NCBI RefSeq assembly: GCF_010672455.1
Contig: NZ_JAAHGO010000006.1
Span: 1-37,019 of the forward strand
Reading direction: 5' to 3'
Length of the DNA stretch: 37,019 nt
Source: Okeania sp. SIO2C9
GTDB lineage: Bacteria > Cyanobacteriota > Cyanobacteriia > Cyanobacteriales > Microcoleaceae
Shown here: in pieces, positions 167-27,699 of the stretch
Layout of the letters: each line of letters opens with the position of its first letter
Numbering within the stretch: the first letter of the stretch is position 1
Made by a program: the position numbers and the translations under genes
Notes under the pieces: generated by a model
Seen by the model: the letters and a program-made list of their open reading frames with translations, nothing else
Databases searched by the model: none
Told to the model about the DNA's origin: nothing

Positions 167-1189
167 CTAACTTTTGTAGTGTTTTGCCAACGTCTCTGAA
201 GGCAACTCCCCAAACATGACTTTGTAATCTCTAGTAAAATGACTCGGACTGTAGAACCCAAATTCACTAGCAAGGAAGGTAATGGTACAATTTTCGGGTT
301 CGCTTGCTTTCAGGTGTTGTCGCACTGCATTAAGTCGTCGTATCTTGAGATAGCGCATCGGACCGACGCCAAATAAGTCTTTAAAACCAAAAGATAACGC
401 ACAACTGCTAGATCCTAAATTTTGAGCGAGTTGTTTTAAGGTCAGAGGTTTTTCTAAGTGTGTTAACATTTCTTTTTCAGCTTGGGCAATCAACTTTTCT
501 CTTCGAGAAGGTTTGAGGAAAGACTTAGAATTTAACTTAATGGGAATGTTACTAATCAACAAAGGAACGAAATCATCAGTAACGAGTTTCTCAATATGAG
601 GGTTTTGAAACCAAGTCGGTTGGTGTACTGCTAACCAAATCAGTTGTTTCAGATAAGCTTTAATTTCTTTCATCCCAGTTAGAAGCAAATTCACATGATT
701 TTTACTCCGGAAATTGTCGTCTAGATCGTGGCGTTGTAGTTGATCTGCATAAGCATCAAAAGTTTGAACAGGGATAACAATGTTTGTCAATGCTCCACCT
801 TGAGGAAATATTTCGTGTGCTTCAGTGTTATTGAAACCAAAAAGAGTATTTTGAGGTTTGACAGGGTGACGGAAGGAGTAATATTCCCTTTCATTCTCAG
901 ACCAAATTATTGCAAAAGATATGTATCCCTTTGTACCATCACCCGAAAATTGAAACCCTTGGTTCACCTGATTACATACAAAAAATATGTCACCAACCTG
1001 AATCGACAAAAACTCACCGTGAAGAGAACCGGGAGTCAGTTGTATTATTTCCTTATTTTTATACTCAAAAAACTCTTTGAAATTATCCACATCTGTAAAG
1101 GATTTTGAGATAATCTTCGGATTACCTGTCCCGGGAGTATCCTCAACTTGGGTAATTTTACTATCGTCTATATCCTTCAACAAACTCAT
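167..1189 (-). CDS. AraC-family transcriptional regulator
   Basis: The protein is 340 aa from the ATG at 1189; a GTG four codons upstream (1201) would give 344 aa. The N-terminal ~200 residues look like an AraC-type ligand-binding (cupin-like) domain. The C-terminal ~100 residues are an AraC/XylS double helix-turn-helix: LTLKQLAQNLGSSS is the first HTH, and ITFLASEFGFYSPSHFTRDY matches the family signature. It is therefore expected to be a cytoplasmic DNA-binding activator or repressor. It is transcribed away from the DUF1254/sulfatase island, and the intergenic region holds copy A of the promoter block that also precedes sulfatases 1 and 3. This makes it a candidate regulator of the island, by position only. 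Its effector is unknown. Confidence 0.9.
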   Translation of the reverse strand: MSLLKDIDDSKITQVEDTPGTGNPKIISKSFTDVDNFKEFFEYKNKEIIQLTPGSLHGEFLSIQVGDIFFVCNQVNQGFQFSGDGTKGYISFAIIWSENEREYYSFRHPVKPQNTLFGFNNTEAHEIFPQGGALTNIVIPVQTFDAYADQLQRHDLDDNFRSKNHVNLLLTGMKEIKAYLKQLIWLAVHQPTWFQNPHIEKLVTDDFVPLLISNIPIKLNSKSFLKPSRREKLIAQAEKEMLTHLEKPLTLKQLAQNLGSSSCALSFGFKDLFGVGPMRYLKIRRLNAVRQHLKASEPENCTITFLASEFGFYSPSHFTRDYKVMFGELPSETLAKHYKS

Positions 1190-1210
1190 TTTTCGCAGCA
1201 CTCTTTAACG

Positions 1211-1233: not shown

Positions 1234-1361
1234 ATTAACCCACCCCTAACCCCTCCCAGGAGGGGAAGTAGGGGATTTAAGCTCTGCTCCAAAAACGTTT
1301 CGCCTTAAAAGGCGGGGTTGCGCGACCCAATTATTTTGATAAAAAAAATAATCAAACAAAT
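1234..1361. other. Intergenic stretch with dispersed repeat core
   Basis: It contains ACCCACCCCTAACCCCTCCC followed by AGGAGGGG, the same C-rich palindromic core found inside the fold-back elements at 21161-21303, 32875-33153 and near 35760. An AT-rich stretch follows. No gene is seen. Confidence 0.5.
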
Positions 1362-1479
1362 TATAAGTAAAACTAATAAAAATTAAAAATTAGTTATTTA
1401 ATTTGTATAGCTTAGAAAGTTATAATTTTCGATCATCCACAGAGAGAGCTTACCACTAAACTAACCATTAAGTCTTTGA
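1362..1479 (+). promoter_or_regulatory. Shared promoter/leader block, copy A (upstream of DUF1254 gene)
   Basis: About 118 bp is nearly identical to the cores of blocks B (4780-5073) and C (12012-12306): TTAGTTATTTAATTTGTATA, then a perfect TATAAT (1421-1426), then TTACCACTAAACTAAC. The TATAAT is present in all three copies and is the best -10 candidate, but no strong -35 is seen at the usual distance. Similarity ends after AGTCTTTGA (1479), where this copy is joined to unrelated sequence and a tnpB remnant. If it is the promoter, the DUF1254 transcript would have a 5' leader of over 350 nt. Confidence 0.6.
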
Positions 1480-1620
1480 AAGGCTGTCAAGAACAAATAA
1501 AGTACATAGCTCATCTCTTGTTATCTCAATGTTGGTTGAAGACCCGCGCTCTCCTGACAAGGGAGCGACGCAATTGGAAAACCAATCAATAAGAGCGGTT
1601 TTTCCAATAGTGTGCTATAG
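1480..1620. other. Intergenic, nothing identified
   Basis: Between promoter block A and the tnpB remnant. Short inverted segments are visible (for example ATTGGAAAAACC-like arms around 1572-1610), but no gene or known site could be assigned. Confidence 0.4.
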
Positions 1621-1794: not shown

Positions 1795-1938
1795 ATGTCT
1801 TTGATAAATAGAAAATCCGATTGGGATTGGGAAGAAGAGTATGCATATACTCTCGGAGTGCAGGCATTCATCTATGCCTTTCCTTGGGCCTACATGCCAG
1901 TAGCCTATAAGCTCCGCCTGGATTTAAACAAGGGGTAA
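1795..1938 (+). pseudogene. DUF1254 protein, 5' fragment (gene split by IS)
   Basis: ATG at 1795 is preceded by AGAGG. The 47-codon frame contains EYAYTLGVQAFIYAFPWAY, the N-terminal signature of DUF1254 proteins (a helix with an A-Y-x-Y-x-F-P pattern). The frame ends at TAA 1936-1938, exactly where the insertion element begins. The rest of the protein resumes at 3318. No signal peptide is apparent, although many relatives are exported. The two halves together match the usual DUF1254/DUF1214 order, so this was one gene before the insertion. Confidence 0.8.
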
Positions 1939-1971
1939 ATACAGAAAGCGAAAACTTATCTAAAGTTTATC

Positions 1972-2061: not shown

Positions 2062-3297
2062 ATGAAGCTAGTTGAACGTCATGTTATCAGCAAATCACAT
2101 GATTTGTGGTCAGAAATTGACCACAAGGCTTTTTTGTCTAAAAATCTGTTTAACTTAGCCAATTACCATTATCGTCAATATTTCTTTTCCGAGCAAAAGA
2201 AATTAAATTTTAATCAACTTTATCACAAGGTATCTAAAAGTTCCGATTATCAAGCTTTACCTACCAAGGTAAGTAAGCAAATTATTAGGAGATTAGATCA
2301 AAGTTGGACTAGTTATTTTTCAGCTTTAAGAGAGTGGAAAAAACAGCCAAATAAATTTTTAGGAAAACCAAAAATTCCCCAATATAAACATAAGACAAAA
2401 GGCCGAAATATTCTGCCCTATCCTGAGGAATCAATTTACAAAAAAGCCTTAAAAAAAGGAATTTGTCATCTGTCTATGAGTGAAATAAAAATTCCTACTT
2501 CACAGACAGAAATAATAGAGGCCAGAATCGTCCCCAAAAGTAGCTGTTATATAATAGAAATAGTCTATGAAAAACCGGAAGAAATAACAGAAAATAAACA
2601 AGTAGCAGGAGTGGATTTAGGAGTCAATAATTTAATAGCTGTAACTACAAATCAAACAGGAACTGCACCTCTTTTGATTAAAGGCAGACCATTAAAAGCT
2701 ATTAATACCTTTTATAATAAACAGCGCTCTTGTTTACAATCTCAATTAAAAACCAACCACAATCAAAGTCATTCTCATAGGTTAAAAAAAATAACTCACA
2801 AACGAAATTGTCGAGTAGAAAATTATCTCCATACAGCCAGTAAAAGAGTAATAGATTGGTGTGTTAACCATGAAATAGGCCAATTTATTATTGGGCATAA
2901 TCAGACATGGAAACAAGAAATAAAATTAGGGAAAAAGAACAATCAACAATTTGTGAATATCCCTCATTATCGGTTAATAGAGATGTTAACGTATAAAGCC
3001 CAATTAATCGGAATAAAAGTAATAATTACAGAAGAATCTTATACATCTCAATCGAGCTTTTTAGATGGGGATTATTTACCAAAATATGGAGATAAAAAAC
3101 CGAAATTTAGTGGAAAAAGAGTAGCAAGAGGGTTGTATAAAACCAGGGGAAATAAATTATTAAATGCTGATGTAAATGGGTCGTTTAACATTATTAAAAA
3201 AGTAATTCCTGATGTCTTTGACCAAGGAATAAAGGGTTTGCCGTTTAACCCTGTGGTGGTTGATCCACTACGAACAACTAAGCTTTCAGATTTTTGA
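2062..3297 (+). CDS. tnpB: TnpB (IS605 OrfB) family RNA-guided nuclease-like protein
   Basis: 411 aa. The N-terminal ~170 residues are the helical/WED-like OrfB region, followed by the RuvC-like core: VAGVDLGVNN (Asp185), TEESYTSQSSF (Glu324/325), and LLNADVNGS (Asp370). At the place where ordinary TnpB has the RuvC-II glutamate (as in VENLRIRNM of the 7877-9100 relative), this protein reads IIGHNQTWKQE, with His279 instead of Glu. There is no CxxC zinc-finger pair. Both features fit a cyanobacterial OrfB branch ending in NADVNGS-NIIKKV, in which the acidic residue may be supplied from elsewhere. The frame is intact. It may help retain the element; transposition itself would need a TnpA in trans. 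Confidence 0.9.
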   Translation: MKLVERHVISKSHDLWSEIDHKAFLSKNLFNLANYHYRQYFFSEQKKLNFNQLYHKVSKSSDYQALPTKVSKQIIRRLDQSWTSYFSALREWKKQPNKFLGKPKIPQYKHKTKGRNILPYPEESIYKKALKKGICHLSMSEIKIPTSQTEIIEARIVPKSSCYIIEIVYEKPEEITENKQVAGVDLGVNNLIAVTTNQTGTAPLLIKGRPLKAINTFYNKQRSCLQSQLKTNHNQSHSHRLKKITHKRNCRVENYLHTASKRVIDWCVNHEIGQFIIGHNQTWKQEIKLGKKNNQQFVNIPHYRLIEMLTYKAQLIGIKVIITEESYTSQSSFLDGDYLPKYGDKKPKFSGKRVARGLYKTRGNKLLNADVNGSFNIIKKVIPDVFDQGIKGLPFNPVVVDPLRTTKLSDF

Positions 3298-3317: not shown

Positions 3318-4580
3318 TTGAGCGGTACAGTCAACAAATTTACCCACCTCCGGAAGCTGAAGGATGAATCCCACCAGCTCGGTGGCGCACCCAATAATGA
3401 CACCCTGTATTCTCAGGCATCTATATATGTGGGGAAAGAACCCCTGATTCTATCGATTCCAGCACTCCCATCAGATCCGGAAAAGGATGACTATCGCTAC
3501 CACAACGTACAATGTACCGATTACCGAGGAGACCAATTTGCTTACGTCGGTACGCGGGCCACGGGAGTAAAAGGAGGCCATTTTGCCATTTTTGGGCCAA
3601 ATTGGTCGGGGAATTTACCTGAAGGCCTGCAGGAGCTTGAAGGTCCTTCGCCGACGCCCTGGGCATTTCTCTCGGCGCGAAACTTACTGATGGAGGCGGA
3701 AAGGAAGGAAGGCGCGGACTTGGATGCAGTCCATGCTATTCAGGATCAGTACAAACTGACACCTCTGTCCCAGTGGATCGATCCAAATGCCACCCCCGAA
3801 CCTGTCGATGAGCTTTGGGAACCTTACGATCGCGCGACCGATCCCCTTGCGGACTGGAAGAATATCAACCGCGCGATGGTTGATAACCCTCCCGATTCCT
3901 ATGATGCGTCCTTGCTCGAATTGTTCGAGACCATTGGTGTCGGGCCGGGATTAGACATTGAGGTTCAGAGTGAAAGCACGAAGCGCGGTCTCGAACGTGC
4001 TGCTGTAGAGGGTTTAAAGATCGTCGATGAGGCTGTCGTCCAAGGGTACGCACACAAAGAAGTGAATGGGTGGAAGTATCCGCCTTCATACTTAGGCCGA
4101 CCTTCATCAGTACGGGATTGGCTGCTGCGTGCAATGCAGGCCCAAGCTGGCTTTGTTGCCAACGATACGATCGAGGCTATCTACATGAGCGTATTCGTAG
4201 ATAAAGATGGCAACCCTCTGTCCGGGGAAAATCGTTACGAGCTTCGGTTCGAGGCTGGAAAGCAACCCGAGGTCAATGCGTTTTGGTCTCTCTCCATGTA
4301 CGATCTTAATTACAACTTGGTGGATAATCCGATCGATCGCTATTCCCTAGGCGATCGTAGTGGGATGACTCCCGGTAACGATGGCAGTCTCACGATTTAC
4401 ATTCAGCGCGAACAACCAAGCGGCGAGAACCTAATCCCCAACTGCTTACCCGCACTCGAAGGCGATTTCTTTATGTTCATGCGCCTGTACTTACCGGGCT
4501 ACCCAGCATTGTCTCAGTACTGGGAACCCCCCAGTTTGGAGAATCTCGGTCCTGCCGAACCTTCTGGTGGTGCGAGCTAA
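3318..4580 (+). pseudogene. DUF1254/DUF1214 protein, 3' part (gene split by IS)
   Basis: This 420-codon frame opens right after the insertion element, with only a TTG as a possible start. The first part continues DUF1254 (GGAPNNDTLYSQASIYV, then YVGTRATGVKGG and FGPNW). The last ~120 residues are DUF1214 (VNAFWSLSMYDLNYNLVDNP, RYSLGDRSG, then FFMFMRLYLPGYP). The biochemical role of this family is not established; its members are often exported. The frame has no internal lesions, so the insertion looks recent. G+C is clearly higher than in the inserted tnpB. Reinitiation at the TTG is possible, but a functional product without the N-terminus is doubtful. Confidence 0.85.
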
Positions 4581-4727
4581 TTGCCGTTACCTACAGGGTG
4601 GGTTTTGCTCGCCCCGATCGACTAACCAGCGCGATCGCCCATCTCGTTGCCAATATTCTTTTATGGTGGACAAAACAGCCTACTTCGTTCTGATTGCTCC
4701 CCGATACATTGGCAAGCGGCGATCGCA
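4581..4727. other. Intergenic downstream of DUF1254, imperfect hairpin
   Basis: GGGTGGGTTTTGCTCGCCCC near 4599-4618 is an imperfect version of the GGGTGGGC/GCCCACCC hairpins that follow other genes here and may act as a terminator. Several GCGATCGC-like sites follow. No gene is seen. Confidence 0.4.
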
Positions 4728-4773
4728 TTTTGGGATGCATCCCGAATTTTGTTAACTCTTTTTATGAGATTTC
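4728..4773 (+). promoter_or_regulatory. Pre-ATG leader block, orphan copy (L1)
   Basis: It reads TTTTGGGATGCATCCCGAAT then TTTGTTAACTCTTTTTATGA, followed by GATTT. The same block stands directly before the ATG of sulfatase 1 (5329-5379) and sulfatase 2 (9353-9403). Here it leads into a hairpin with no start codon, so it is probably a leftover of a duplication or of a lost gene. Confidence 0.6.
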
Positions 4774-4779
4774 ACTGTA

Positions 4780-4798
4780 GGGTGGGCAGTGCCCACCC
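4780..4798 (+). terminator. Hairpin GGGTGGGC-AGT-GCCCACCC
   Basis: A perfect 8-bp GC-rich stem with a 3-base loop, followed by TTATTTAT. It forms the first part of block B and could end transcription from the DUF1254 side. The same hairpin is at 12012-12030 after sulfatase 2. Confidence 0.55.
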
Positions 4799-5073
4799 TT
4801 ATTTATGTTGCGCCAGTAGTGGCGTACTCCAAAAGGGTTATATAAGTAAAGTTAATACATTAAAAAAATTAGTTATTTAATTTGTATAGCTGAGAAAGTT
4901 ATAATTTTCGATCATTCACAGAGATAGCTTACCACTAAACTAACTTTAAAGTCTTTGATTTACCCCATAGCACAACAGAGTGGACATGACTCACCCTGTT
5001 TCGATTAAGGCTTTGGATCAATGCTTTTTTGTGGTGTGGAATTGTTCTCCACCACGCTCTGAAAAATTGGCTC
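4780..5073 (+). promoter_or_regulatory. Shared promoter/leader block, copy B (upstream of sulfatase 1)
   Basis: 294 bp are co-linear with block C (12012-12306), with a few substitutions and one T-run length difference. The central part also matches block A (1362-1479). It includes the conserved TATAAT (4900-4905). Downstream, GTGGTGTGGA and TCTCCACCAC form a hairpin (about 5031-5055), and a short frame starts at ATG 4986 (MTHPVSIKALDQCFF...). Block B ends about 300 bp before the sulfatase 1 ATG. Conservation well beyond the -10 suggests a functional 5' leader rather than only a promoter. Confidence 0.65.
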
Positions 5074-5130
5074 GTACCAAATCTGGGTTAAACAAACCCG
5101 TTTTAAATAACCCAAAAAAGCTCTCTAGAG

Positions 5131-5146
5131 ACCTTGCATGCAAGGT
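5131..5146. repeat. Palindrome ACCTTGCATGCAAGGT
   Basis: A perfect 16-bp palindrome around TTGCATGCAA, followed by TTCTACAGGGT. The relatives at 16791-16810 and 21321-21340 have the same centre and a similar downstream TACAG/TACGGAGTA tail. Confidence 0.75.
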
Positions 5147-5328
5147 TTCTACAGGGTGGGAGCTAACGGGGTATTTATACCGGATTTGGTATCAGTAGTA
5201 GCGCGTCTACGTCAAGGCAGAAGTTCTAACAACGAACCAATTTTTCCTGTCAAAGTCTCTTGTTGCCCTTAGAATTAAACCTTTCTTTGGCTCAAACTAG
5301 CTAGCGATATTGAGACTTTATTAACCCT
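5147..5328. other. Intergenic, nothing identified
   Basis: Between block B and the L2 leader. CGTCAAGGCAGAAGTTCTAA and an AT-rich stretch are visible. No gene or known site could be assigned. Confidence 0.4.
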
Positions 5329-5379
5329 TTTTGGGATGCGTCCCCAATTTTGTTAACTCTTTCTTATTAGGTTTTACCG
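5329..5379 (+). promoter_or_regulatory. Pre-ATG leader block L2 of sulfatase 1
   Basis: TTTTGGGATGCGTCCCCAAT then TTTGTTAACTCTTTCTTATT, followed by AGGTTTTACCG, ends directly at the ATG. Copies are at 4728-4773 and 9353-9403. The TTAGG (TGAGG in L3) about 9 bases before the ATG is the likely ribosome binding site. Confidence 0.65.
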
Positions 5380-7821
5380 ATGTTTTTGAACCGAATGTTG
5401 AGAACGATCGCGATATTTGCGATCGCCATCTCTCTCCTATTGGGAAGTATTACTCCCCCTGTCTTGGCACAAACTGCTAATGGCTCGACCCTGCCATTCC
5501 CGACAGTGCCATCAGCCAGCGTTGCCGGACCGACTTTGGATCCTCCCACCACCATGATTCGGCGGGAAGAACCGAACTATATACCCAACGAAGATCCGCC
5601 CAACATCCTGATTATCCTGCTGGATGATGTAGGCTTCGGACAGCCTGACACCTTTGGTGGCGAGATCCACATGCCGACTCTAAGCCGTTTGTGGGATGAA
5701 GGGATTGCCTATAACACCTTTCACACTACTGCTATCTGCTCGCCCACCCGCGCCGCTCTCTTAACCGGGCGCAATCACCACCAGGCCCAATCAGGTACGA
5801 TCGCAGAATTTTCGGTGGACTGGGATGGTTACCTGGGGGTTATTCCCAAGACCACTGCCACGGTCGCCGAAGTTTTGAGCGAATACGGCTACAAAACCTC
5901 TGCCTTCGGCAAATGGCACAATACCCCAACCAATGAGACCACAGCTATGGGTCCATTCGATCGCTGGCCTACTGGGCATGGTTTCGACTATTTCTACGGC
6001 TTCCTTGCGGGTGAAACCTCTCAGTATGAGCCGCGCCTCTATGAGAACCTCAACCCCATAGAGCCGCCCCACGACGAGACTTACCACCTGACTGAGGACA
6101 TGGCGGATAAAGCGATCAACTGGATGCGTCACCACCGTTCCTATTCTCCCGACAAACCCTTCTTGATGTACTGGGCACCAGGGGCAGTCCACGGTCCTCA
6201 CCATGTCTTCAAGGAATGGGCAGATAAGTATAAGGGTAAATTCGATGACGGCTGGGACGAGTACCAAAAGCGGGTCTTTCAAAACCAGAAAGCCCTGGGC
6301 TGGATTCCAGTAGAAGCACAGCTAGCTACTCGGCCTGATGACATGCAAGCATGGGATGATATTGAGGATGAGGAGGAACGTGACTTCCAACGGCGGTTGA
6401 TGGAAGTCTATGCAGGGTTTCTCGAACATACGGATACCCAGGCAGGTAAGGTGATCTCGGAACTCGACAATCTGGGCATTCGCGACAATACCATCGTCTT
6501 TTATATTGTTGGTGACAACGGAGCCAGTGCCGAAGGTCAGGAGGGCACTATCAGCGAATTTCTTGCCCAGAACCTAATTCCCAGTACGATCGAGGAGCAA
6601 CTTGAGGCTCTCGACGAACTAGGCGGACTTGATGCCCTGGGAACCCCAAAAACCGAAAATATGTACCACGCAGGTTGGGCCTGGGCAGGGGATGCCCCCT
6701 TCCGTTATACCAAGCTAGTTGCTTCCCACTTCGGTGGTACCCGCAACCCCATGGTAATCTCCTGGCCCAAGGGTATCACCCCCGACAAAACCCCCCGGTC
6801 TCAGTTTCACCATGTCAACGATATCGCTCCAACTATCTACGATATCCTGGGCATTACCCCCCCTGAAGAGGTTTACGGCTTCAAGCAAAAAGCCCTCGAT
6901 GGGATTAGCATGAAGTACACCTTCGACGATGCCAACGCAGAGGATCGAAAGAAGGTTCAGTATTTCGAGAACAGCGGCAGCCGAGGCATCTATATCGATG
7001 GCTGGTATGCCTGCACCTTCGGTCCTCAGATCCCCTGGAATATAGCTAAATCAGCAGAGGGCTTCCCTGACTGGGATCCCAATGAGGACGTTTGGGAACT
7101 GTATCACATTACCGAGGACTTCACTCAAATGGAGAATCTGGCAGCTCAGGAGCCAGAGCTTTTGGAGGTAATGAAACAAGTGTTCTTGGAAGAAGCAGAA
7201 GAGAATTTGGCATTCCCCATTGGAGGCGGCCTGTACGTCAACGCTAATCCCGAAGACCGGATCGGGAGTCCCTACACTAGCTGGACTTTTGATGAAAGCA
7301 CAACTCGTATGCCTGAATTCACTGCACCGAGCCTAGGTCGCGAGAGCAATCTGGTTACGATCGATGTCGATCTGGAAGAAAATGCTGACGGCGTTCTCTA
7401 TGCCTTGGGAGGTTCCGGTGGCGGTGTGAGCTTGTTTATGGACAACGGAATTCTGAAGTACGAGTACAATATGCTGCTCCTCGATCGTTATAAGGCTGCA
7501 TCAAATGCACCGATCGATGGTGGTCATCACACCATTGAAGTAGACACAACCATCGAGGATCTCTATTCCCCAGGTAAAGTGGTTATACGAGTGGATGGCT
7601 TAGAAGTCCTCGACCAGCCAATCACTATCGAAACAATCGTCGTGGGAGCCTTCAGTGCCAGTGAAACCTTCGATGTCGGCACGGATCTGGGGGCTCCGGT
7701 TTCCCTAGACTATGCCGATCGCGCTCCCTTTGAGTTCGACGGAACGATTAACACTGTGAAAGTAGAGCTGACATCAGATGAATCTCACTTTTTACCTTTA
7801 CTCCCAGCTCCCTTGGACTAG
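5380..7821 (+). CDS. Exported arylsulfatase 1 (formylglycine type)
   Basis: 813 aa. Residues 1-30 form a Sec signal peptide ending PPVLA|QT, so the enzyme is periplasmic or secreted. The alkaline-phosphatase-fold sulfatase domain starts at NILIILLDDVG (metal-binding Asp82/Asp83). It has the C-x-P-x-R motif in ICSPTRAALLTGR (Cys120, to be converted to formylglycine), FGKWH, the HGPHH region, VGDNG, and SHFGGTRNPMVISWP. About 170 C-terminal residues form a beta-rich extension ending in APFEFDGTINTVKVEL. Its length and architecture resemble the ~790-aa actinobacterial AtsD-like sulfatases; the substrate is unknown. It is preceded by leader L2 and promoter block B. A ~62-bp stretch of its 3' end recurs almost unchanged in sulfatase 3. 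Confidence 0.93.
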   Translation: MFLNRMLRTIAIFAIAISLLLGSITPPVLAQTANGSTLPFPTVPSASVAGPTLDPPTTMIRREEPNYIPNEDPPNILIILLDDVGFGQPDTFGGEIHMPTLSRLWDEGIAYNTFHTTAICSPTRAALLTGRNHHQAQSGTIAEFSVDWDGYLGVIPKTTATVAEVLSEYGYKTSAFGKWHNTPTNETTAMGPFDRWPTGHGFDYFYGFLAGETSQYEPRLYENLNPIEPPHDETYHLTEDMADKAINWMRHHRSYSPDKPFLMYWAPGAVHGPHHVFKEWADKYKGKFDDGWDEYQKRVFQNQKALGWIPVEAQLATRPDDMQAWDDIEDEEERDFQRRLMEVYAGFLEHTDTQAGKVISELDNLGIRDNTIVFYIVGDNGASAEGQEGTISEFLAQNLIPSTIEEQLEALDELGGLDALGTPKTENMYHAGWAWAGDAPFRYTKLVASHFGGTRNPMVISWPKGITPDKTPRSQFHHVNDIAPTIYDILGITPPEEVYGFKQKALDGISMKYTFDDANAEDRKKVQYFENSGSRGIYIDGWYACTFGPQIPWNIAKSAEGFPDWDPNEDVWELYHITEDFTQMENLAAQEPELLEVMKQVFLEEAEENLAFPIGGGLYVNANPEDRIGSPYTSWTFDESTTRMPEFTAPSLGRESNLVTIDVDLEENADGVLYALGGSGGGVSLFMDNGILKYEYNMLLLDRYKAASNAPIDGGHHTIEVDTTIEDLYSPGKVVIRVDGLEVLDQPITIETIVVGAFSASETFDVGTDLGAPVSLDYADRAPFEFDGTINTVKVELTSDESHFLPLLPAPLD

Positions 7822-7876
7822 AAGAATGCTGATTTGACATCCTCCCCCGTTTTAAAACGGGGGATTCCAAATATCA

Positions 7877-9100
7877 CTATTTGGATTTCCTCTTTCTCGG
7901 TGTTCGAGCTGACTTACTAGGTTGAGTTTCCCCAACATAGCAGAGATCAATCTCTCGGGAGGCGTTAATTTCCGTCTGCCCGACGGTATTTGAGAGTTGT
8001 TTTAAAGCAGCTTTAAGGATATTCCGACTGGCGTTATGATCGCGGTCAGTTTCGTACTTACAATGCGGACACCTATGGGTTCTTGTACTGAGACTTTTAA
8101 CAACCTTTTCTCCGCAATTTGAACAATTTTGTGAGGTATTTCTGGGTTCAACAGCAATAACTGGAACCCCATAAATTCTCCCAAAATATTCAAGCCATTC
8201 TCTAAACCTGTACCAAGCTGCGTCACTAATCGACTTGGCTAGATGATGATTTTTAACCATGTTTCGTATCCGTAGGTTTTCAACTGCGACCAAGTCGTGA
8301 GACTGGATGACGTGCTGGGCTAATTTACAAACCCAATCGTTACGCCTGCGTGAAACCTTGAGATGCGCTCTACCTAATTTGTTCCTGGCTTTTGAGCGAT
8401 TTTGACTTCCCTTTTGAGTTCTTGATAGACGACGTTGCCACTTTTTAATTTTGCGTTCATCCTTTCTCAAGAACCGAGGATTGTCGATCTGATTGCCAGA
8501 ACAATCTGTATAGAAGAAATTAAGACCAACATCTAGAGCAGTCTGTTTTCCAGTGAGTTCCTTCTTCTCTTCTCTTTCGTGGTCTATCAGAAATTGTGCA
8601 TAATACCCGTCATGTCTTCTAATCACTCTCACTCGTTTAATCTGTTCGAGTTGATAGAAGTGTAAGTCTCGACTTCCCCATAGTTTAAATGTACCTGCTT
8701 GAAACTTGTCTGAAAACGTTAAATAACGCCTATCTTCAGATAGTTTCCAGCCCGACGTTTTGTACTAAACAGACGCTCTAACTTGGTATTTTTTAAACCG
8801 AGGAAAACCCTTTTTTCCAGGTATCTTTTGCCGACAATTCTTATAGAACCGTTCTATTGATGCCCAGGCTCTTTCTGCGTGTGCTTGTCGTGCCATTGAG
8901 TTTAATCTGGATACCCAGGGAAACTCTGAATTATCTGACAGTACCTTGCAGTGCTTATAGGCATCATTGCGACTTTTGACTTGACCGTCTAACCATGCTC
9001 TGATGACACTATTCCGAACGAATCGGCCTGTCCGAATGGCTTCATCTAACCTTCGGTACTGGTTCTCCGTTCCTTTTAGTTTCATCTCATATACGAGCAT
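7877..9100 (-). pseudogene. tnpB: tnpB interrupted by one in-frame TAG
   Basis: Codons 1-111 (9100 down to 8768) encode the TnpB N-terminus (MKLKGTENQYRRLDEAIRTG, RFVRNSVIRAWL). A TAG at 8765-8767 interrupts the frame at codon 112, and the same frame then continues YKTSGWKLSEDRRYLTFSDK to 7877, giving 407 sense-plus-stop codons in total. All catalytic positions remain: ALDVGLNFF (Asp ~190), LVAVENLRIRNM (Glu), a zinc finger CSNCG/CPHC, and DRDHNASRNIL (Asp). The lesion is a single base change (probably GAG or CAG to TAG). The part after the stop could be translated separately from a GTG at 8632, but the nuclease would lack its N-terminus. Confidence 0.88.
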
Positions 9101-9102
9101 AG

Positions 9103-9126
9103 TTTATCGTAATTGATAACGATAAA
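9103..9126. repeat. Left-end hairpin of the tnpB element
   Basis: TTTATCGT (9103-9110) and ACGATAAA (9119-9126) form a perfect 8-bp inverted repeat with an 8-base loop, just upstream of the tnpB start. This is typical of IS200/IS605 subterminal hairpins. Confidence 0.75.
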
Positions 9127-9352
9127 TTATCATAGCACGAGTTGGCGTTCACTGCCATTTAAAAATGGCTCTCTCGCTTATATCCCCTATTTTTAAATAG
9201 GGGCTTTACCCATCGCCACCGTAAAGTAATTTAGTTACGGGGTGGGCGTTGCCTACCCTCATTACCTAAGTTCTACTCTAATTCAGCTAAACCTGTAGAG
9301 TTCCGAGCCAGCTCGGGACTCTACAGGCCATCCCAAGGCTATCCAGATTGTG
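9127..9352. other. Intergenic run of hairpins before sulfatase 2
   Basis: Several palindromes occur in a row: GCCATTT-AA-AAATGGC (9154-9169), CCCCTATTT-TT-AAATAGGGG (9184-9203), a GGGGTGGGCGTTGCCTACCC hairpin (9239-9258), and CTGTAGAGTTCCGAGC...CTCGGGACTCTACAG (about 9292-9326). Some could be terminators. No promoter block of the A/B/C type is present, so sulfatase 2 may have its own promoter here or once have been read from sulfatase 1. Confidence 0.5.
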
Positions 9353-9403
9353 TTTTGGGATGTCGCCTGAGATTGTGTTAACCCCTTTTATGAGGTTTTA
9401 TCT
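9353..9403 (+). promoter_or_regulatory. Pre-ATG leader block L3 of sulfatase 2
   Basis: TTTTGGGATGTCGCCTGAGA then TTGTGTTAACCCCTTTTATG, followed by AGGTTTTATCT, ends at the ATG. It has the same spacing as L2 of sulfatase 1. TGAGG about 9 bases before the ATG is the likely ribosome binding site. Confidence 0.65.
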
Positions 9404-11941
9404 ATGTTTTTAAACGGTTTTTTGAACCGAATTTGCAGAGGGATCGTGGCGATCGCGATCGCCCTCTCCTTTTTCCTCAATACTGCTGTGTTGCCTGCAA
9501 TGGCACAGCAGATTTTGCCCCATCCCGACCCCATTTTTACGGGCGAAATGGGACTAACTTACGAAGACTCCCAATCCGAAAAGGCAGACCTGAAATTACC
9601 CTCTACCTTTGGCATTGAAAATGCCCCCAATATCCTTGTGGTGATGCTAGATGATGTAGGCTATGGTCAGATGTCAACCTTTGGCGGCGCTATTTCCAGT
9701 CCGACCTTGGAAAAGCTCGCAGATAATGGCTTGCGCTATACCCAGTTCCACACGACAGGCATCTGTTCTCCCACCCGAGCAGCCCTTCTCACCGGACGCA
9801 ACGCTCACTCCGTAGCATCCGGCGCTGTCATGGAGGCTGGAACGAATTTTCCGGGCTATTCCACCCTTATCCCCCAGAATGCGGCAACGATCGGCCAGAT
9901 TCTACAGTCCTATGGCTATGCCACATCTTGGTTTGGTAAAAACCATAATACTCCCGACTGGGAAACAGGGGCGATCGGGCCGTTTGATCGCTGGCCTGTG
10001 GGTTTAGGATTTGACTATTTCTACGGCTTTGTTGGTGGCGAAACCAACCAATACCATCCTGCCTTGGTGGAAAATACAACTCGTTTGGAAGCGCCCAAAA
10101 CTAATGCCGATGGATCGCCCTATATCTTCAATACCGATTTAGCCGATCATGCTATCAACTACATCCGCACAACCTATGCTCTGTCAGACGAAAAACCTTT
10201 TTTCATGTTCTTTGCTCCGGGGGCGACTCATGCCCCGCATCAGGTTTCCGAAGACTATATCAAGAACTTCGCGGGTGAATTTGATACGGGCTGGGATGAG
10301 TACCGCAGCAAAACGTTTGAGAAACAAAAAGAATTAGGGGTTATTCCAGCAAACGCCGTACTCACTCCTCGCCAGGACTTACGGGATTGGGATGATGATT
10401 TGGACGCAGACGAGAAAAGACTCTATGCCCGCATGATGGAAGTCTTTGCTGGCTTTACCCAACAAACAGATGAAGAAATCGGTCGAGTGATTGATGCCAT
10501 TGAAGACTTGGGTCTCTTGGACAATACGTTGGTGATTTATATTGCTGGCGATAATGGCGCTAGTGCAGAAGGTGGAGTGGATGGAACGATTAATACAACC
10601 ACCTACCGCAACGGCTTGACAGAAGACTTTGACGACAAACTGGCAGCGATCGACGAGTTAGGCAGTTCCAAACACGATAATCATTTCCCTGCCGGTTGGG
10701 CTTGGGCAATGGATACGCCCTTCCAATGGACCAAACAGGTTGCTTCCCACTTTGGGGGAACTCGTAATGGCATGGTTGTTTCTTGGCCTGATCGTATTAC
10801 CGATAAGGGAGATGTGCGCTACCAATTCAGCCATGTTATTGACATCGTTCCGACTATTCTCGAAGCAGTTGGTATTGAAGCACCGACTCAAGTTAACGGT
10901 GTCACCCAGAAACCCATCGAAGGAACAAGTCTGGTTTATACCTTTGATGCAACCGATACTGAAGGCAACGATATAAGCGCGATCGATGCCCCCAGCGAAC
11001 ATACAACCCAATACTTTGAAATCGCCGGAAATCAGGGGATCTACGATAATGGCTGGATGGCAAGTGCAATTCGGACAGTGCCGTGGCAGGGGAACGAGCC
11101 ATTGGGCAATAGCCTGATTGATATGGATTGGGAGCTTTATAACGTTAATGGAGATGCTGACGAGAGTTGTTCTGTCAATACTCCAGACTTTACCCAAGCA
11201 AACGATCTAGCTGAGGAGTGTCCCGATAAGCTGGATGAAATGGTCAAGCTCTTTTATGCCGAGGCTGCTAAACATAATGTCTTCCCGTTGGACGATCGTC
11301 GTTACGAACGGTTCGATCCATCCCTGCGTCCCAGTTTGGTAGAAGGAAGAACCCATTTTATCTTCCCAGATCATTTCCGCGCTCCTGAAGGTGTAGCACC
11401 TAACTTGAAGTCCAAAAGCCACACGATTACTGCAGATGTCGTGTTTCCACCGGGGGGCGAAGGTGTATTAGTGACTTTAGCGGGTGCTTTTGGCGGGTAT
11501 GGGTTGTTTGTACAGGACGGTAAGTTAGTGTATGACTACAACTTAGCCAGACTTGAACACTATCGGATCGAAGGATCTTTATTGGAGATTCCAGTCCCCA
11601 CCATTGGTCTCCCCATTACTCTCAAGGCAGTTTATCAAACTGTTTCTGATGAGCCTGGTGTGGGAGGAGAAGTCACCCTTTATGCCGACGGTCAGCAAAT
11701 TGGTCACGGCTTTGTCTGTGAGACCTTGAGTACCCGCTACACCCCGGATGAAACCTTTGATGTCGGCTTTGATACGGGTTCGGCAGTATCCGAGAGCTAT
11801 GTGGATTTGATGCCCTTTGATTTCACTGGAACTTTGAACTCAGTGACAATCGAAATCACTGACGATCTCGCAGACAAAGAGTCTGTAGAGGCATACTGCG
11901 GGCAGCCTTTACTTCTTAATCCCATTCCGTTCTACGATTAA
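9404..11941 (+). CDS. Exported arylsulfatase 2 (formylglycine type)
   Basis: 845 aa, with a signal peptide of 34 residues (LPAMA|QQ). The sulfatase fold starts at NILVVMLDDVGYG (Asp83/Asp84). The modification motif is ICSPTRAALLTGR (Cys121). Further active-site blocks are FGKNHN, HAPHQ, AGDNGAS and SHFGGTRNGMVVSWP. A beta-rich C-terminal extension ends ...DFTGTLNSVTIEITDD plus a short tail with a cysteine. FGKNH here replaces FGKWH of sulfatase 1 and matches sulfatase 3. It is parallel to sulfatase 1 and very similar in plan, so the two arose by duplication. The hydrophobic core of the signal peptide is encoded by overlapping GCGATCGC octamers. Substrate unknown. Confidence 0.93.
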   Translation: MFLNGFLNRICRGIVAIAIALSFFLNTAVLPAMAQQILPHPDPIFTGEMGLTYEDSQSEKADLKLPSTFGIENAPNILVVMLDDVGYGQMSTFGGAISSPTLEKLADNGLRYTQFHTTGICSPTRAALLTGRNAHSVASGAVMEAGTNFPGYSTLIPQNAATIGQILQSYGYATSWFGKNHNTPDWETGAIGPFDRWPVGLGFDYFYGFVGGETNQYHPALVENTTRLEAPKTNADGSPYIFNTDLADHAINYIRTTYALSDEKPFFMFFAPGATHAPHQVSEDYIKNFAGEFDTGWDEYRSKTFEKQKELGVIPANAVLTPRQDLRDWDDDLDADEKRLYARMMEVFAGFTQQTDEEIGRVIDAIEDLGLLDNTLVIYIAGDNGASAEGGVDGTINTTTYRNGLTEDFDDKLAAIDELGSSKHDNHFPAGWAWAMDTPFQWTKQVASHFGGTRNGMVVSWPDRITDKGDVRYQFSHVIDIVPTILEAVGIEAPTQVNGVTQKPIEGTSLVYTFDATDTEGNDISAIDAPSEHTTQYFEIAGNQGIYDNGWMASAIRTVPWQGNEPLGNSLIDMDWELYNVNGDADESCSVNTPDFTQANDLAEECPDKLDEMVKLFYAEAAKHNVFPLDDRRYERFDPSLRPSLVEGRTHFIFPDHFRAPEGVAPNLKSKSHTITADVVFPPGGEGVLVTLAGAFGGYGLFVQDGKLVYDYNLARLEHYRIEGSLLEIPVPTIGLPITLKAVYQTVSDEPGVGGEVTLYADGQQIGHGFVCETLSTRYTPDETFDVGFDTGSAVSESYVDLMPFDFTGTLNSVTIEITDDLADKESVEAYCGQPLLLNPIPFYD

Positions 11942-12011
11942 CCAGTGCAAAATTCGAGCATTGATTTAAGACCGAAATGGAAGTAGGCATCTTAATAGCG
12001 AACTTTTAGTC
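11942..12011. other. Short spacer after sulfatase 2
   Basis: Seventy bases without a recognisable site, leading into the terminator hairpin at 12012. Confidence 0.4.
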
Positions 12012-12030
12012 GGGTGGGCAGCGCCCACCC
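12012..12030 (+). terminator. Hairpin GGGTGGGC-AGC-GCCCACCC
   Basis: A perfect 8-bp GC stem with a 3-base loop, followed by TTATTCAT, 70 bp after the sulfatase 2 stop. It is the counterpart of the hairpin at 4780-4798 and is again fused to the start of a promoter block. Confidence 0.6.
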
Positions 12031-12217
12031 TTATTCATGTCGCGTCAGTAGTGGCGCATTCCAAAAGGGATATATAAGTAAAGTTAATACATTTAAAAAA
12101 TTAGTTATTTAATTTGTATAGCTGAGAAAGTTATAATTTTTGATCATTCACAGAGACAGCTTACCACTAAACTAACCATTAAGTCTTTGATTTACCCGAT
12201 AGCACAACAGAGTGGAC

Positions 12218-12295
12218 ATGACTCACCCTGTTTCGATTAAGGCTTTGGATCAATGCTTTTTTTGTGGTGTGGAATTGTTCTCCACCCCGCTCTGA
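12218..12295 (+). other. Possible Cys-containing leader peptide in block C
   Basis: ATG at 12218 opens a 25-codon frame, MTHPVSIKALDQCFFCGVEL then FSTPL, ending in TGA. The first 15 codons are identical in block B (ATG 4986), but there the shorter T-run shifts the frame to a longer tail. A cysteine-rich leader could in principle sense sulfur status by attenuation. The frame difference argues against conservation of the whole peptide. Low confidence. Confidence 0.25.
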
Positions 12296-12361
12296 AGAAT
12301 TGGCTCAGTAATGACTTCCGCGCCTAGCCTGTAGCAACGCTGCACGAATAGGTTCAAGAGG

Positions 12362-15513: not shown

Positions 15514-15712
15514 CCCTCTCATATTAAATAAATGAGCTTTCTTTGTTTATACCAAATCCGCATAATTACTATACTCAAGTCATTGCGACTGGAACAGAGT
15601 GGAAGGAAGCAATCTCAGGGGTGCGCGGAGATTGCTTCCTATCGTCGCTGCGGACGACTGTTCTCTATATCAAAGCTATTCTCTACCTCAGAAAAATAAT
15701 TCTGTAACTCAA

Positions 15713-16735
15713 ATGATGAATAATTCTCAAAATTATATTCAAAAATTCCTAATTGTTCTCAGTGTTTTTATTCTAACTGTTACTATTTTTAGTCCGAGTG
15801 CGTTTGCCGTACCCTCTTCAACTTGTCCCCAAAATATGGAATTCATTCCGGGAGGAGAGTTCAAAATGGGGTCAGACAAACCAGAATTTATCGAAGAACT
15901 ACCTGTTGAAAATGTGACTGTCAGTTCATTTTGCATTGACTCCCACGAAATTACCAACGCCGAATTTACCAAGTTTGTTGAAGATACAGGTTACGTTACT
16001 ATAGCCGAACGTCCTCTATCAAAATCACAATTTCCTGACTTATCCGATGAAGAGCGATCGCCTGGTTCCCTTGTTTTTGAACCTCCCGCAGAAGGCATTC
16101 AACAAGTCGCTTATCTAAGTTGGTGGCATTGGGTTGTGGGCGCAAACTGGCAACATCCCTACGGCTCCGATAGCAATATTAGCGACAAAGAAAACTATCC
16201 CGTTGTTCATATTGCCTACGAAGATGCCTTAGCTTACGCCAAGTGGGCAGGAAAACAACTTCCCACCGAAGCTCAATGGGAATACGCTGCCAGAGGCGGT
16301 TTAAAAGAATCTACTTATACCTGGGGTCAAGAATATTCTGCTAAAAAAGCCAACACCTGGCAAGGAATTTTTCCTTTTCTGAATACCAAAGGGGATGGCT
16401 ATTTGGGAACTGCTCCCGTTGCTTCGTTCAAGGCAAATGGTTACGGTTTGTATGACATGACAGGTAACGTTTGGGAATGGACAGCGGACTGGTATCAGGT
16501 TGAACGAAAAGACATGGCTCATAGCGTTAATCCTGAAGGTCCCAGACAAGCGGAAAGTTTTGACCCCAAAAAACCTGGTGAGGGAGCAGTACACGTTATT
16601 AAGGGTGGTTCTCACCTCTGTGCGCCCAACTATTGCAGTCGATACCGTCCGGCTGCACGGGAGTCCCAGTCACCGGATACTGGAACCACTCACATTGGTT
16701 TTCGCCTTGTCAAAAATTTGGTGTTAGTGAATTAG
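15713..16735 (+). CDS. Exported formylglycine-generating enzyme (FGE-sulfatase domain)
   Basis: 340 aa from ATG 15713; the frame is open 38 codons upstream, but that part does not look like protein, and the ATG starts a clear signal peptide (FLIVLSVFILTVTIFSPSAFA, cleavage after AFA). The mature protein is an SUMF1/FGE domain: MEFIPGGEFKMGSD, VSSFCIDSHEITNAEF, LPTEAQWEYAARGG, YDMTGNVWEWTADWY, and GGSHLCAPNYCSRYRPAAR ending HIGFR. Cys303 and Cys308 correspond in position and spacing to the two catalytic cysteines of human FGE (336/341), so this is likely a true oxidase of sulfatase cysteines rather than a diverged paralogue. The reaction needs O2 and copper. Its place beside three sulfatases with Sec signals implies it matures them after export. 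Confidence 0.9.
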   Translation: MMNNSQNYIQKFLIVLSVFILTVTIFSPSAFAVPSSTCPQNMEFIPGGEFKMGSDKPEFIEELPVENVTVSSFCIDSHEITNAEFTKFVEDTGYVTIAERPLSKSQFPDLSDEERSPGSLVFEPPAEGIQQVAYLSWWHWVVGANWQHPYGSDSNISDKENYPVVHIAYEDALAYAKWAGKQLPTEAQWEYAARGGLKESTYTWGQEYSAKKANTWQGIFPFLNTKGDGYLGTAPVASFKANGYGLYDMTGNVWEWTADWYQVERKDMAHSVNPEGPRQAESFDPKKPGEGAVHVIKGGSHLCAPNYCSRYRPAARESQSPDTGTTHIGFRLVKNLVLVN

Positions 16736-22939: not shown

Positions 22940-23096
22940 AAATTTTTGATATTGGGAATTCTTAAGTTATTTTATAATAATTTGATAATAATTAGAGAAA
23001 GTTGGTTATAACTTGTTGGGTTGTTGGTAGGTGTCAGAAGTCAGGAGAAAATATTTTTGTATCTTTGACAAGATAAGAAATAAAATTTATCCTATT

Positions 23097-23189
23097 CAGG
23101 ACTTACGCATAACCATCACATATTGTAGGGGTTAACGGCCGTTAATCCCTATAAATGGTTTATAGTCTCATCCTTTGGGTAAGTCCTGC
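23097..23189. mobile_element. Short palindromic element with CAGGACTTACGCA ends
   Basis: 93 bp with 13-bp terminal inverted repeats (CAGGACTTACGCA / TGGGTAAGTCCTG, one mismatch) and a central GGGGTTAACGGCCGTTAATCCC palindrome. A decayed copy is at 21411-21497. The same left end begins unrelated repeats at 15202 and 27856. It abuts the decayed restriction-enzyme gene. Confidence 0.7.
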
Positions 23190-23193
23190 TATT

Positions 23194-23968
23194 TTAAAAA
23201 TAGCCTTGATTTAAAACCCTATTTATAGATGGATTAGCATTATCAATCAATATTTTAATTTTATCGATGGTCTTGTGAAAAACATGAGGATAATATTTTG
23301 AAGCATCTAAAAATACTGCATATTCTTGTTGATGAATATGTCTTACTTATGGTGTTTTATGTTCTTGTCTAATGTTAGCAGCAAGAGACTTTGATTTACT
23401 GACTATTAAAGAGTTTAAACAATAGAAATAGGTGTCATATCTAGAAATTCGCAAATCAAAAAGTATAGGGAACCACCGAACAGCTATTTTTAAATCTCTG
23501 CTAGTAGCAACTGCTTATTGAAACATCGTTTTATCTAAATTCGTTTTGCATTCTGCACATACATAACCGTACTGGAGATTCAATTAGTTTAAAATTTTGA
23601 AAATTTGCTTCAAAAGATGTTTTTAAATAGAGCTTTTTGCCTAAAATAAAGTCTTGAACCTTCGACCTAATAGATGATTGAACACCCAGACCAGGATTAC
23701 CCAAAGATAATAAAAGACTCAGGCCAGAAAATGTATTTCTCGGACCCAACTCAAAAGATTCATCTATTCCTCGTAAGCTTTGGAACACAAGTTAAGGTAA
23801 AAACTCTTCCAAAATTGTATTGTCTAATTTTAATTGCCATTTCTGCCTGTAAAAAAAATTTTCTGAGCTATCAAATATTAAATCTAGTTCAATAAAACGC
23901 TTGTATTTATTTGTAGCTGCCACTAACTTTTCCACAGTATCAGCTTTGTTATCCTCGACAATCAAGTC
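23194..23968 (-). pseudogene. Decayed type II restriction endonuclease gene (Bpu10I-like)
   Basis: On the minus strand several overlapping frames join into one protein: SSENFFYRQKWQLKLDNTIL, EEFLP, TAA, GIDESFELGPRNTFSGL, LGKKLYLKTSF, then after a frameshift VCAECKTNLDKTMFQ, TAA, AVATSRDLKIAV, another shift to YFLICEFLDMTPIS, and another to SKSLAANIRQ. The pieces follow the order I recall for Bpu10I/BbvCI-type enzymes; AECKTNLDK would be the E-x-K part of the PD-(D/E)xK site. At least three frameshifts and two stops make it nonfunctional. No intact partner methyltransferase is visible. The family name is from memory; the decay is directly visible. Confidence 0.6.
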
Positions 23969-24359
23969 TTATAATTATTGATATGTCTAGGTTAGAGCTA
24001 TTTTTTTCCTCTATTTAGCGACAACTCTAATATCCGCATTATAAAGCTGAAGCTGACAAAACTTATCCCCTCAGATCGACACATTCAGCTCAATGAAAGT
24101 TTCTCGGTTGTTTCAGTTCAAATGCACCTGTTGGGTAACTATCACAACACAATAACTGATGAACATATTCGCTAAACTCGTGTATGGATAATATAGAATA
24201 TAGTACCGTAAATCTGATACAATTGAGCTGATTAATCATTTAAAACAAACACCATTTTATATTGATTTAGTAAGGAAAATAAAAGAGAGTTTTCCTGTCA
24301 TTAATAGCTAGTATAGTTGTTAAAAGTTATGATAAAAAACTATTAGGAGTTAATAATAA
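23969..24359. other. Intergenic, possible further remnant
   Basis: On the minus strand around 24100-24180 a short open stretch reads FSEYVHQLLCCDSYPTGAFE before a stop, which could belong to the same lost locus. No family was recognised. The 3' part is AT-rich and holds the ribosome binding site AGGAG of the next gene. Confidence 0.35.
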
Positions 24360-25022
24360 ATGACTATGGTATGTGACAATCAAAATCACAGGTTAAAAGA
24401 ATTATTAGAAGAGCATGGAATTAGGTGTTTTGAAGAATGGAACTGGATTATACCCTATGGAGAACTGCCAGCAATTCGTATGTTTTGGTATCCAAAACCC
24501 CAACAAATAACTGGTGTTCTCCAAGTAGAAGTATTGATCGAAGAGGGAATCGTTTTAGTAGAATACTTTGCAGGAATTGGAGAGGGTCTAGATGGATTGA
24601 CTGATGGGATTGATAGTTTTATAAATAATTCATTACACGTCTTACTAGCTGCATTTTGGGGTCAAAATTATCCGGAGCAAGTTGAAATAGAAAGATGGTT
24701 AATTAATAATTATGAATACGATGTATATATAGGTCCTATTACAGTTATAGGAAGTAATGGTAATACAGAAATTCCAGAAAATACTTTCGAGAAAATTGAG
24801 CAAGCTATAAAAATGACAAATTTAACTGAAAAATATTGTTGGTTTAGAACATACTTTGGTAATGTAAATGGCAAAGATTGTGTTTTCGAGGCATTGGCGA
24901 ATAACGAATGGTGGGAAGAAGGCGAAAAGGCATTGAAGTCAGTTGATTGGGTTGATACTAATTTATTTTATAGTTTTAGAAATTTTATAGTTGCAGTTAA
25001 AAGCTCATCAGAAAACACTTAA
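24360..25022 (+). CDS. Conserved hypothetical protein (possibly DUF6348-like)
   Basis: 220 aa, acidic, no signal peptide or membrane segment. TAGGAG about 12 bases before the ATG supports the start. Visible features are many Trp/Tyr/Glu residues, a small hydrophobic helix LHVLLAAFWG near residue 97, and WFRTYFGNVNGKDCVFEALA in the C-terminal third. I believe it may belong to DUF6348, from memory only; no biochemical role can be given. It is an orphan gene next to a decayed restriction-enzyme gene, so a link to defence or to toxin immunity is conceivable but unsupported. Confidence 0.7.
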   Translation: MTMVCDNQNHRLKELLEEHGIRCFEEWNWIIPYGELPAIRMFWYPKPQQITGVLQVEVLIEEGIVLVEYFAGIGEGLDGLTDGIDSFINNSLHVLLAAFWGQNYPEQVEIERWLINNYEYDVYIGPITVIGSNGNTEIPENTFEKIEQAIKMTNLTEKYCWFRTYFGNVNGKDCVFEALANNEWWEEGEKALKSVDWVDTNLFYSFRNFIVAVKSSSENT

Positions 25023-25383
25023 AATTAGAAGGTTTTAGTCCACATCTTAGTTTGAGCATTATGCCTCAAATATCCCAAATATTTAGAATTATATAGAATC
25101 CGGTTATACAGTATATGTTTATAATTCTATCCACACTTTCGGAGCCTTCAATCTCTCGACCTCCCCTTCTCCCCACACTCCCCACCCTCCCCACACTTCC
25201 CACCCCCAAACATAAGATAAGTATTCAACCTGATTTTATATTATACCATGTCCGGATGATTAAGTATAATAAAAATTTTCTATTGAAGCGATCTCAAAGG
25301 AATATCCCAAATTTCTGCTCCGTTTCCAGTGTTATCATTTGAATTCACACCTACGACCTACTACCTAAGAACTTTATTATAAC
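25023..25383. other. Intergenic with pyrimidine-rich tract
   Basis: A C/T-rich stretch (about 25160-25208) has repeated CCCCACACT/CCCCACCCT units. The rest is AT-rich. No gene is seen. Confidence 0.5.
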
Positions 25384-25634
25384 TAATTAGGGTTTGCGCT
25401 TATAAAGTCTTTTTGCTCTTTGTAGGAGACAGGAGACAGGAGACAGGAGGAACGGGGAATTTAGAAGAGGTAGTAGAAAGAATTGTAAGAATGATTTTTC
25501 TGCCTAACTATGCGCCTAAAATACGCTCCATGCATGAGCATGAAGAGCTGAAACAGGCGTACTTTTTTAGACCCCAAAAAAGCTAAAGTCTTTATATGTC
25601 AATGCTTTTATATTTAATCAGCAAGCCCTAATTA
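25384..25634. mobile_element. MITE-like element with TAATTAGGG ends
   Basis: 251 bp bounded by TAATTAGGGTTTGC (25384-25397) and GCAAGCCCTAATTA (25621-25634), 13 of 14 bases paired. Inner arms (ATAAAGTCTTTTTGCT / AGCTAAAGTCTTTATA) extend the fold-back. A (GAGACAG) heptamer array (25425-25450) sits inside. No coding capacity. Confidence 0.65.
25425..25450. repeat. Heptamer tandem repeat (GAGACAG)n
   Basis: Three and a half units of GGAGACA phase. Confidence 0.85.
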
Positions 25635-27025: not shown

Positions 27026-27144
27026 AATTATACTTTAGTCTGTTGATTTTTACTTAATACAAATAGTTATTTTGTCCTGATAAAATGTATCTATACTGTT
27101 GTTCAACAATTAATTATTAATGATTAATTATTAACAATTACCTT

Positions 27145-27678: not shown

Positions 27679-27699
27679 TTAATTTGATTCAGAAACATT

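Follow-up and report, generated by a model that had tools for sequence, protein, structure and literature searches.

The window analysed here, a stretch of 37,019 nucleotides, is contig NZ_JAAHGO010000006.1 (C274 in our numbering) of the cyanobacterium Okeania sp. SIO2C9, whose whole genome comprises 10.9 Mb. It carries the gene of an AraC-family regulator, a broken DUF1254 gene, three sulfatase genes and the gene of a protein with an FGE-sulfatase domain (Table 1), together with three copies (A, B and C) of a non-coding block. An earlier sequence-only reading of the window had described this block as a promoter followed by a working 5' leader, reused in front of three genes. The results of the current analysis lead us to propose that the block is probably the operator-promoter of a small regulon under the control of the AraC-type protein.

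Table 1 Features of the window. Positions are those of the whole stretch; E values are those of the model or family search named.
Feature	Position	Strand	Evidence or remark
AraC-family regulator, 344 amino acids, divergent from block A	167..1201	-	Pfam HTH_18 1.9e-14, HTH_AraC 3.3e-8
Block A, predicted operator-promoter	1359..1482	+	Covariance model E 2.1e-26 (whole genome); in training set
Candidate core operator of block A	1416..1432	+	TATAAT at 1421-1426 inside
Candidate -10 of block A, TAAACT	1457..1462	+	TAnnnT in 38/40 blocks at same column
N-terminal piece of broken DUF1254 gene	1825..1947	+	tblastn
Remainder of DUF1254/DUF1214 gene	3318..4580	+	Severed by insert with IS605/TnpB gene (2062-3297)
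Start-module remnant, directly upstream of B copy	4722..4774	+	Covariance model E 6.1e-4 (whole genome)
Terminator-like hairpin, left edge of B repeat	4779..4799	+	C counterpart 12012-12030
Block B, predicted operator-promoter of sulfatase 1	4839..4968	+	Covariance model E 4.1e-28; in training set
Distal conserved element of block B	4865..4888	+	
Candidate core operator of block B	4895..4911	+	TATAAT at 4900
Candidate -10 of block B, TAAACT	4936..4941	+	
Sulfatase 1 start module: ribosome-binding stretch, ATG 5380, signal peptide	5335..5453	+	Model E 1.5e-22; in training set
Sulfatase 1, 813 amino acids	5380..7821	+	Pfam Sulfatase 1.4e-63
Sulfatase 2 start module, without block in front	9346..9490	+	Model E 9.8e-34; in training set
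Sulfatase 2, 845 amino acids	9404..11941	+	
Block C, predicted operator-promoter of sulfatase 3	12071..12200	+	Covariance model E 3.0e-28; in training set
Candidate core operator of block C	12127..12143	+	TATAAT at 12132
Candidate -10 of block C, TAAACT	12168..12173	+	
Sulfatase 3, 921 amino acids	12421..15186	+	Start module not found
FGE-sulfatase-domain protein, candidate sulfatase-activating enzyme	15599..16735	+	Pfam FGE-sulfatase 1.2e-77

The block in the window and in the host genome

A single 118-nt family comprises blocks A (1362-1479), B (4841-4958) and C (12073-12190), with B and C 89% and 92% identical to A, and the long stretch that the earlier reading had seen in all three is thereby borne out. 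Its observation that B and C remain collinear over some 295 bp also holds, the similarity extending from 4777 and 12009 to about 5073 and 12306 at 94% identity (pairwise E values of 1.4e-127 for B/C and 7e-38 for B/A). Sulfatases 1 and 3 do follow a block as had been described, but the third gene, DUF1254 at A, is broken: an insert with an IS605/TnpB gene (2062-3297) separates its N-terminal piece (about 1825-1947) from the remainder, which begins at 3318. A second IS605-type TnpB gene lies between sulfatases 1 and 2 (7877-8632).

We aligned 28 blocks (138 columns, few gaps), derived a sequence-only covariance model from them and identified six strong copies in the 10.9 Mb genome, namely A, B, C and three others, D (contig C244), E (C24) and F (C135), with E values between 3.0e-28 and 3.9e-23. 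The next match in the whole genome drops to 2.8e-5, and BLAST recovers five copies. All six strong copies were in the training set of the model, and the search is informative in that a seventh strong one is absent. All six sit in clusters of AraC and hydrolase genes. Block D lies between a DUF1254 gene and a divergent AraC gene, E between an AraC gene and a metallophosphatase/sulfatase/FGE-domain series, and F between an AraC gene and a sulfatase, with the tblastn matches of the AraC paralogs ending 25-35 bp from each of the three blocks. We rejected as copies six further matches that are weak and block-like (C101, C285 twice, C252, C24 and C2); the two that were inspected had no intact core. 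A partial block-like match lies antisense within the coding region of a sulfatase in the C285 cluster (L049:8640-8700, minus strand; whole-genome E 0.078).

Core, promoter and leader

Forty non-redundant blocks were cut without gaps around a 17-bp core, which reads AAAGTTGGAATTTTTGA in most relatives; two of 42 candidates had no core and were dropped, and for block B the identical sequence from Okeania sp. SIO2B3 was counted in its place. The TATAAT hexamer that the earlier reading had called invariant lies inside this core. It is indeed present in A (1421), B (4900) and C (12132), and also in D, but block E has TTCAAT and block F TGGAAT, and over the 40 blocks the hexamer is TATAAT in only 10, TGGAAT in 20, TGGGAT in 7, TTCAAT in 2 and another sequence in 1. 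A hexamer of the form TAnnnT is found 41 bp after the start of the core in 38 of the 40 blocks (TAAACT in 17, TAAAGT in 8, TAAGCT in 5, and rarer others), and no other forward column reaches 24 of the 40. On the strength of this fixed column, TAnnnT appears the likelier -10 element, and TATAAT loses the role of an invariant -10 that it had been given. With TAnnnT as the -10, the core spans -53 to -37 and much of what had been called leader, from TATAAT to TAnnnT, is on this new reading predicted promoter, which would not be transcribed.

The pattern of conservation was followed in 253 pairs of AraC genes and their blocks, compared without gaps. The mean identity of the core is 0.85-0.88 (about 86%) in every divergence bin, where the mean identity at fourfold sites of AraC ranges from 0.50 to 0.81, and core identity exceeds fourfold identity in 224 of the 253 pairs. 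The stretch from -16 to -1 has an identity of 0.72-0.82, and that from +1 to +37 of 0.33-0.46. Conservation falls off past the predicted start, and therefore tracks the operator and promoter and not a leader.

Folding the aligned blocks, which the earlier reading had proposed, gave no consensus structure for a leader. RNAalifold, applied to 28 blocks over five ranges and on both strands, reached at most -0.65 kcal/mol and found no hairpin in leader columns 85-210; its only consensus is a 6-bp hairpin in columns 1-140 (-0.65 kcal/mol, z -5.9 against column shuffles), which lies within the core operator. The downstream hairpin that had been described for B and C does fold in both, but no better than shuffled sequences (z -0.37 and -0.58), and in C one stem base is changed without compensation. 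The leader of D is no better than its shuffles either (z +0.23), and those of A and E are slightly better (z -1.99 and -1.51). At gathering thresholds, the window contains no match to any Rfam family. The leaders of B and C have no terminator-like hairpin in common; the one that the two copies share lies upstream of the block, at the left edges of the repeats (Table 1), where these hairpins may insulate the blocks from upstream transcription. Block B alone is followed by two more terminator-like hairpins, at 5084 and 5331. The B leader also contains an insert with inverted ends that resembles a miniature inverted-repeat transposable element (about 5074-5200 in the window). In G002, another genome of this genus, the start of the insert follows the counterparts of both B and C at the same site; in the window it does not follow C.

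Linkage to the AraC gene and the proposed regulon

The AraC gene and the block occur together across genomes. We surveyed 291 genomes of the order with an AraC alignment search and with the block model under stricter filters (E<=1e-6). AraC matches at E<=1e-60 are present in 17 of the 291 genomes, nine of which have matches at E<1e-100, and the block was found in 10 genomes, comprising all nine of the latter and one of the 282 others (G186); as several of the nine had given training sequences, the telling figure is the low rate elsewhere, 1/282. Among 59 near relatives, eight have an AraC match at E<1e-100 and blastn shows the block in five of these eight, to which the block model adds the G004 locus (L130) and L062, which is probably the G011 locus. 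The fetched loci contain 45 distinct block matches (46 minus one from a duplicate locus). A divergent AraC gene lies within 600 bp of 28 of these and a same-strand AraC gene just upstream of three; a gene of the seed families follows within 1.6 kb downstream of 39, and 26 have both a divergent AraC gene and a target, although these counts are biased, the loci and seeds having been chosen around AraC genes and blocks, and the genome-wide counts are fairer. Where no divergent AraC gene is present, blocks B, C and both blocks of L176 (same-strand AraC upstream) still precede a target. Beside AraC homologs of 32-36% identity from other families, the core is found with at most two mismatches in three of nine loci (L076, L077 and L080), and in L080 a TATAGT hexamer stands at +41 as well. 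The 17-bp core pattern in its exact form occurs at 32 places in 25 of the 291 genomes, as against 9 places for a backward control. AraC or sulfatase genes are close to 15 of the 32; the other 17 have no seed gene within 1.5 kb, and a core by itself is therefore not specific.

These results support the suggestion of a control region that the genes share under one regulator, and the naming of the AraC protein as this regulator fits the phylogenetic linkage. We propose a model in which the binder, the activation and the position of the transcription start are inferred from sequence comparison. The AraC-family protein (167-1201) and its paralogs would bind the core AAAGTTGGAATTTTTGA, and probably also a conserved element 7-30 bp upstream of it. 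The core would be situated just upstream of a weak -35 element, from where the bound protein would recruit RNA polymerase to the putative -10, TAnnnT, located 41 bp after the start of the core. The predicted targets switched on in this way are exported sulfatases, alkyl sulfatases, phosphoesterases and DUF1254 proteins. Self-regulation of AraC is likely, because the block is also upstream of the AraC gene where the latter is divergent. In the regulator itself, Pfam recognises the AraC helix-turn-helix only, and all NCBIfam models remain below their cut-offs (best, EutR, with 71 bits vs 319). Its AlphaFold model (mean pLDDT 68.7) consists of a beta-rich N-terminal domain and the helix-turn-helix, and the best match in the PDB is the AraC-like activator CuxR (E 1.7e-8, 12% identity, TM 0.40 by query). 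An effector is likely on the basis of this model, and the predicted beta-rich domain suggests, with low confidence, that it is a small molecule.

Several results weigh against the operator-promoter reading. AraC-type sites usually consist of paired half-sites, and profile autocorrelation revealed no significant internal half-site repeat in the block (best score 3.02, against a null mean of 2.65 and a null maximum of 3.54). Simple sigma-70 scans, which found no promoter-like site using TATAAT at A, B and C, also picked no site using TAAACT there, as expected for an activator-dependent promoter though no proof of one. The block as a whole is more similar than the fourfold sites of AraC in only 135 of the 253 pairs (109 of 190 in a smaller set), and reliably so only in divergent pairs (29 of 29 with fourfold identity <0.55), so that recent common ancestry explains part of the similarity. 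The AraC genes themselves point the same way, as their similarity fits horizontal transfer. Compared with recA, the one housekeeping gene used, whose fourfold identity between the host and G115 and G209 (another family, genus g48) is 0.39-0.40, that of AraC is 0.77; for G236 the values are 0.40 and 0.63. With such transfer, the blocks would owe some of their similarity to recent ancestry. The association with AraC also has gaps: the block of G186 (L101, G186:C1:2373759-2373865, E 5.1e-11) has no seed gene within 1.5 kb, and its genome yields no AraC match at E<=1e-60; at L065, probably the locus of the truncated AraC of G021, the model finds no block; and the AraC gene of contig C285 has no strong block beside it. 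A recognised target is missing at six of the 45 block matches, two of which (L168 and L170) are without an intact core and probably compositional. Finally, six of the nine distant AraC homologs have no clear core, and TAnnnT at +41 is absent in L076 and L077.

Part of this evidence would also suit a different regulator, for instance a nutrient-stress factor, with AraC as a linked target or passenger of the block. The targets resemble enzymes that hydrolyse sulfate and phosphate esters and could be under nutrient regulators, AraC binding to the block is a prediction, and G186 has the block without a close AraC match. We nevertheless consider this explanation unlikely, given the co-occurrence of the block with close AraC relatives across genomes and the presence of the core beside three of the nine AraC homologs from other families, which have 32-36% identity. 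The sequence-only reading had favoured a conserved 5' leader, with TATAAT as the -10 and the transcribed shared stretch acting as an attenuator, a riboswitch or a protein-binding RNA. This would account for TATAAT in A, B, C and D, for conservation that extends about 50 bp past it, for a hairpin in columns 1-140 that beats column shuffles despite its low energy, and for the somewhat better folding of the A and E leaders. It is difficult to reconcile with the scarcity of TATAAT among the 40 blocks, with a sole consensus hairpin that falls within the core operator, with the ordinary folds of B, C and D, and with the 33-46% identity past the predicted start, where neither a shared fold nor an Rfam match was found; a working leader or attenuator is thus not borne out, and we regard it as quite improbable.

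Chance residence of a mobile or dispersed repeat in these clusters is very improbable. Near-identical promoters of B and C before anciently diverged genes are what such a repeat might leave behind, and other repeats abut both promoters. However, a generic repeat scattered over unrelated loci is not what the genome contains: none of the six strong copies lies outside the AraC/hydrolase clusters, by which this explanation is largely refuted. The core also keeps its identity across divergence, and its spacing to TAnnnT is the same in 38 of 40 blocks. On the operator-promoter reading, cyanobacterial AraC regulators of this family have a predicted operator, and one predicted regulon would unite exported sulfatases, alkyl sulfatases and phosphoesterases of Okeania, Hydrocoleum, Symploca and Moorena.

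Promoter copying, the start module and related systems

Sulfatases 1 and 3 share 47% of their residues and 0.35 of their fourfold sites (167 sites, saturated), whereas their blocks are 95% identical and the next 72 bp 99%. Such near-identical promoters in front of saturated genes indicate that the promoter segment was copied or converted between paralogs that were already old. Block B is identical to its G002 counterpart over 150 bp, and the copying therefore probably predates the split between the host and G002. Further blocks precede further sulfatases at the loci of G115, G075 and G236 (L173, L179, L171 and L172).

Many of these genes also have in common a start module, which joins about 30 bp of non-coding DNA ahead of the ATG to a signal-peptide start that is related among them. 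In the host genome, the start-module model gives nine matches at E<=1.3e-7, five of which were in its training set, and all nine are in the five AraC-bearing contigs (C274, C135, C24, C244 and C285). A second profile was trained on ten sulfatase modules alone, its best reversed decoy scoring 0.019. This profile matches before alkyl sulfatases (3e-35, 3.8e-19 and 9.5e-20), a metallophosphatase (2.6e-21), DUF1254 genes (6e-20, 2e-16 and 7e-13), a 5'-nucleotidase-domain gene (3.7e-9) and a gene without a Pfam match (4e-16); of the nine genes, seven were searched against Pfam and two were named by tblastn. The two elements are mixed in the window, where both are present at sulfatase 1, the module only at sulfatase 2 and the block only at sulfatase 3. 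We put forward, with a confidence that falls just short of even, that the AraC operator-promoter and the separate start module constitute a two-part 5' cassette that was copied as DNA onto non-homologous enzymes, which were thereby recruited into an exported, co-regulated set moving as islands between families of marine cyanobacteria. The enzyme bodies so equipped would, with the same near-even confidence, be type I sulfatases, alkyl sulfatases of the metallo-beta-lactamase type, calcineurin-like phosphoesterases, a 5'-nucleotidase-domain protein and DUF1254 proteins. If this is true, the growth of a regulon by the copying of promoters and secretion starts onto unrelated enzymes is visible here.

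Parts of this arrangement are reminiscent of known systems. AraC/XylS-type class II activators (araBAD I1-I2 type) act from a site next to the -35. The present system is similar in its AraC-type helix-turn-helix protein, often divergent from the target, and in a conserved site that ends just upstream of the predicted -35, but differs in that no significant paired half-sites were detected in the block and in having several paralogous regulators and clusters in one genome. Proteins with a YSIRK signal peptide have an adjacent AraC-type regulator, and thus share with our system both an AraC-type regulator beside exported proteins and, among themselves, a type of signal peptide. In contrast, the regulator described here scores only 27 bits against NCBIfam TIGR04094, in the helix-turn-helix only and far below the cut-off of 200, and non-coding ribosome-site DNA is common to the present genes as well. 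In Zobellia galactanivorans, the carrageenan regulon is controlled by the AraC-family positive regulator cgrA, located in a sulfatase-rich cluster, with further regulated genes elsewhere (PMC5698469). The likeness lies in the AraC-family regulator within a sulfatase-rich cluster; that host belongs to the Bacteroidetes, and the parts of the paper available to us mention no 5' cassette common to unrelated enzymes (PMC5698469). No earlier description of the present system was found in the open-licence literature, subscription journals being largely outside the search. As a minor observation, the right half of the window (23029-35500) contains many arrays of AGGAGTC-type heptamers and other dispersed repeats.

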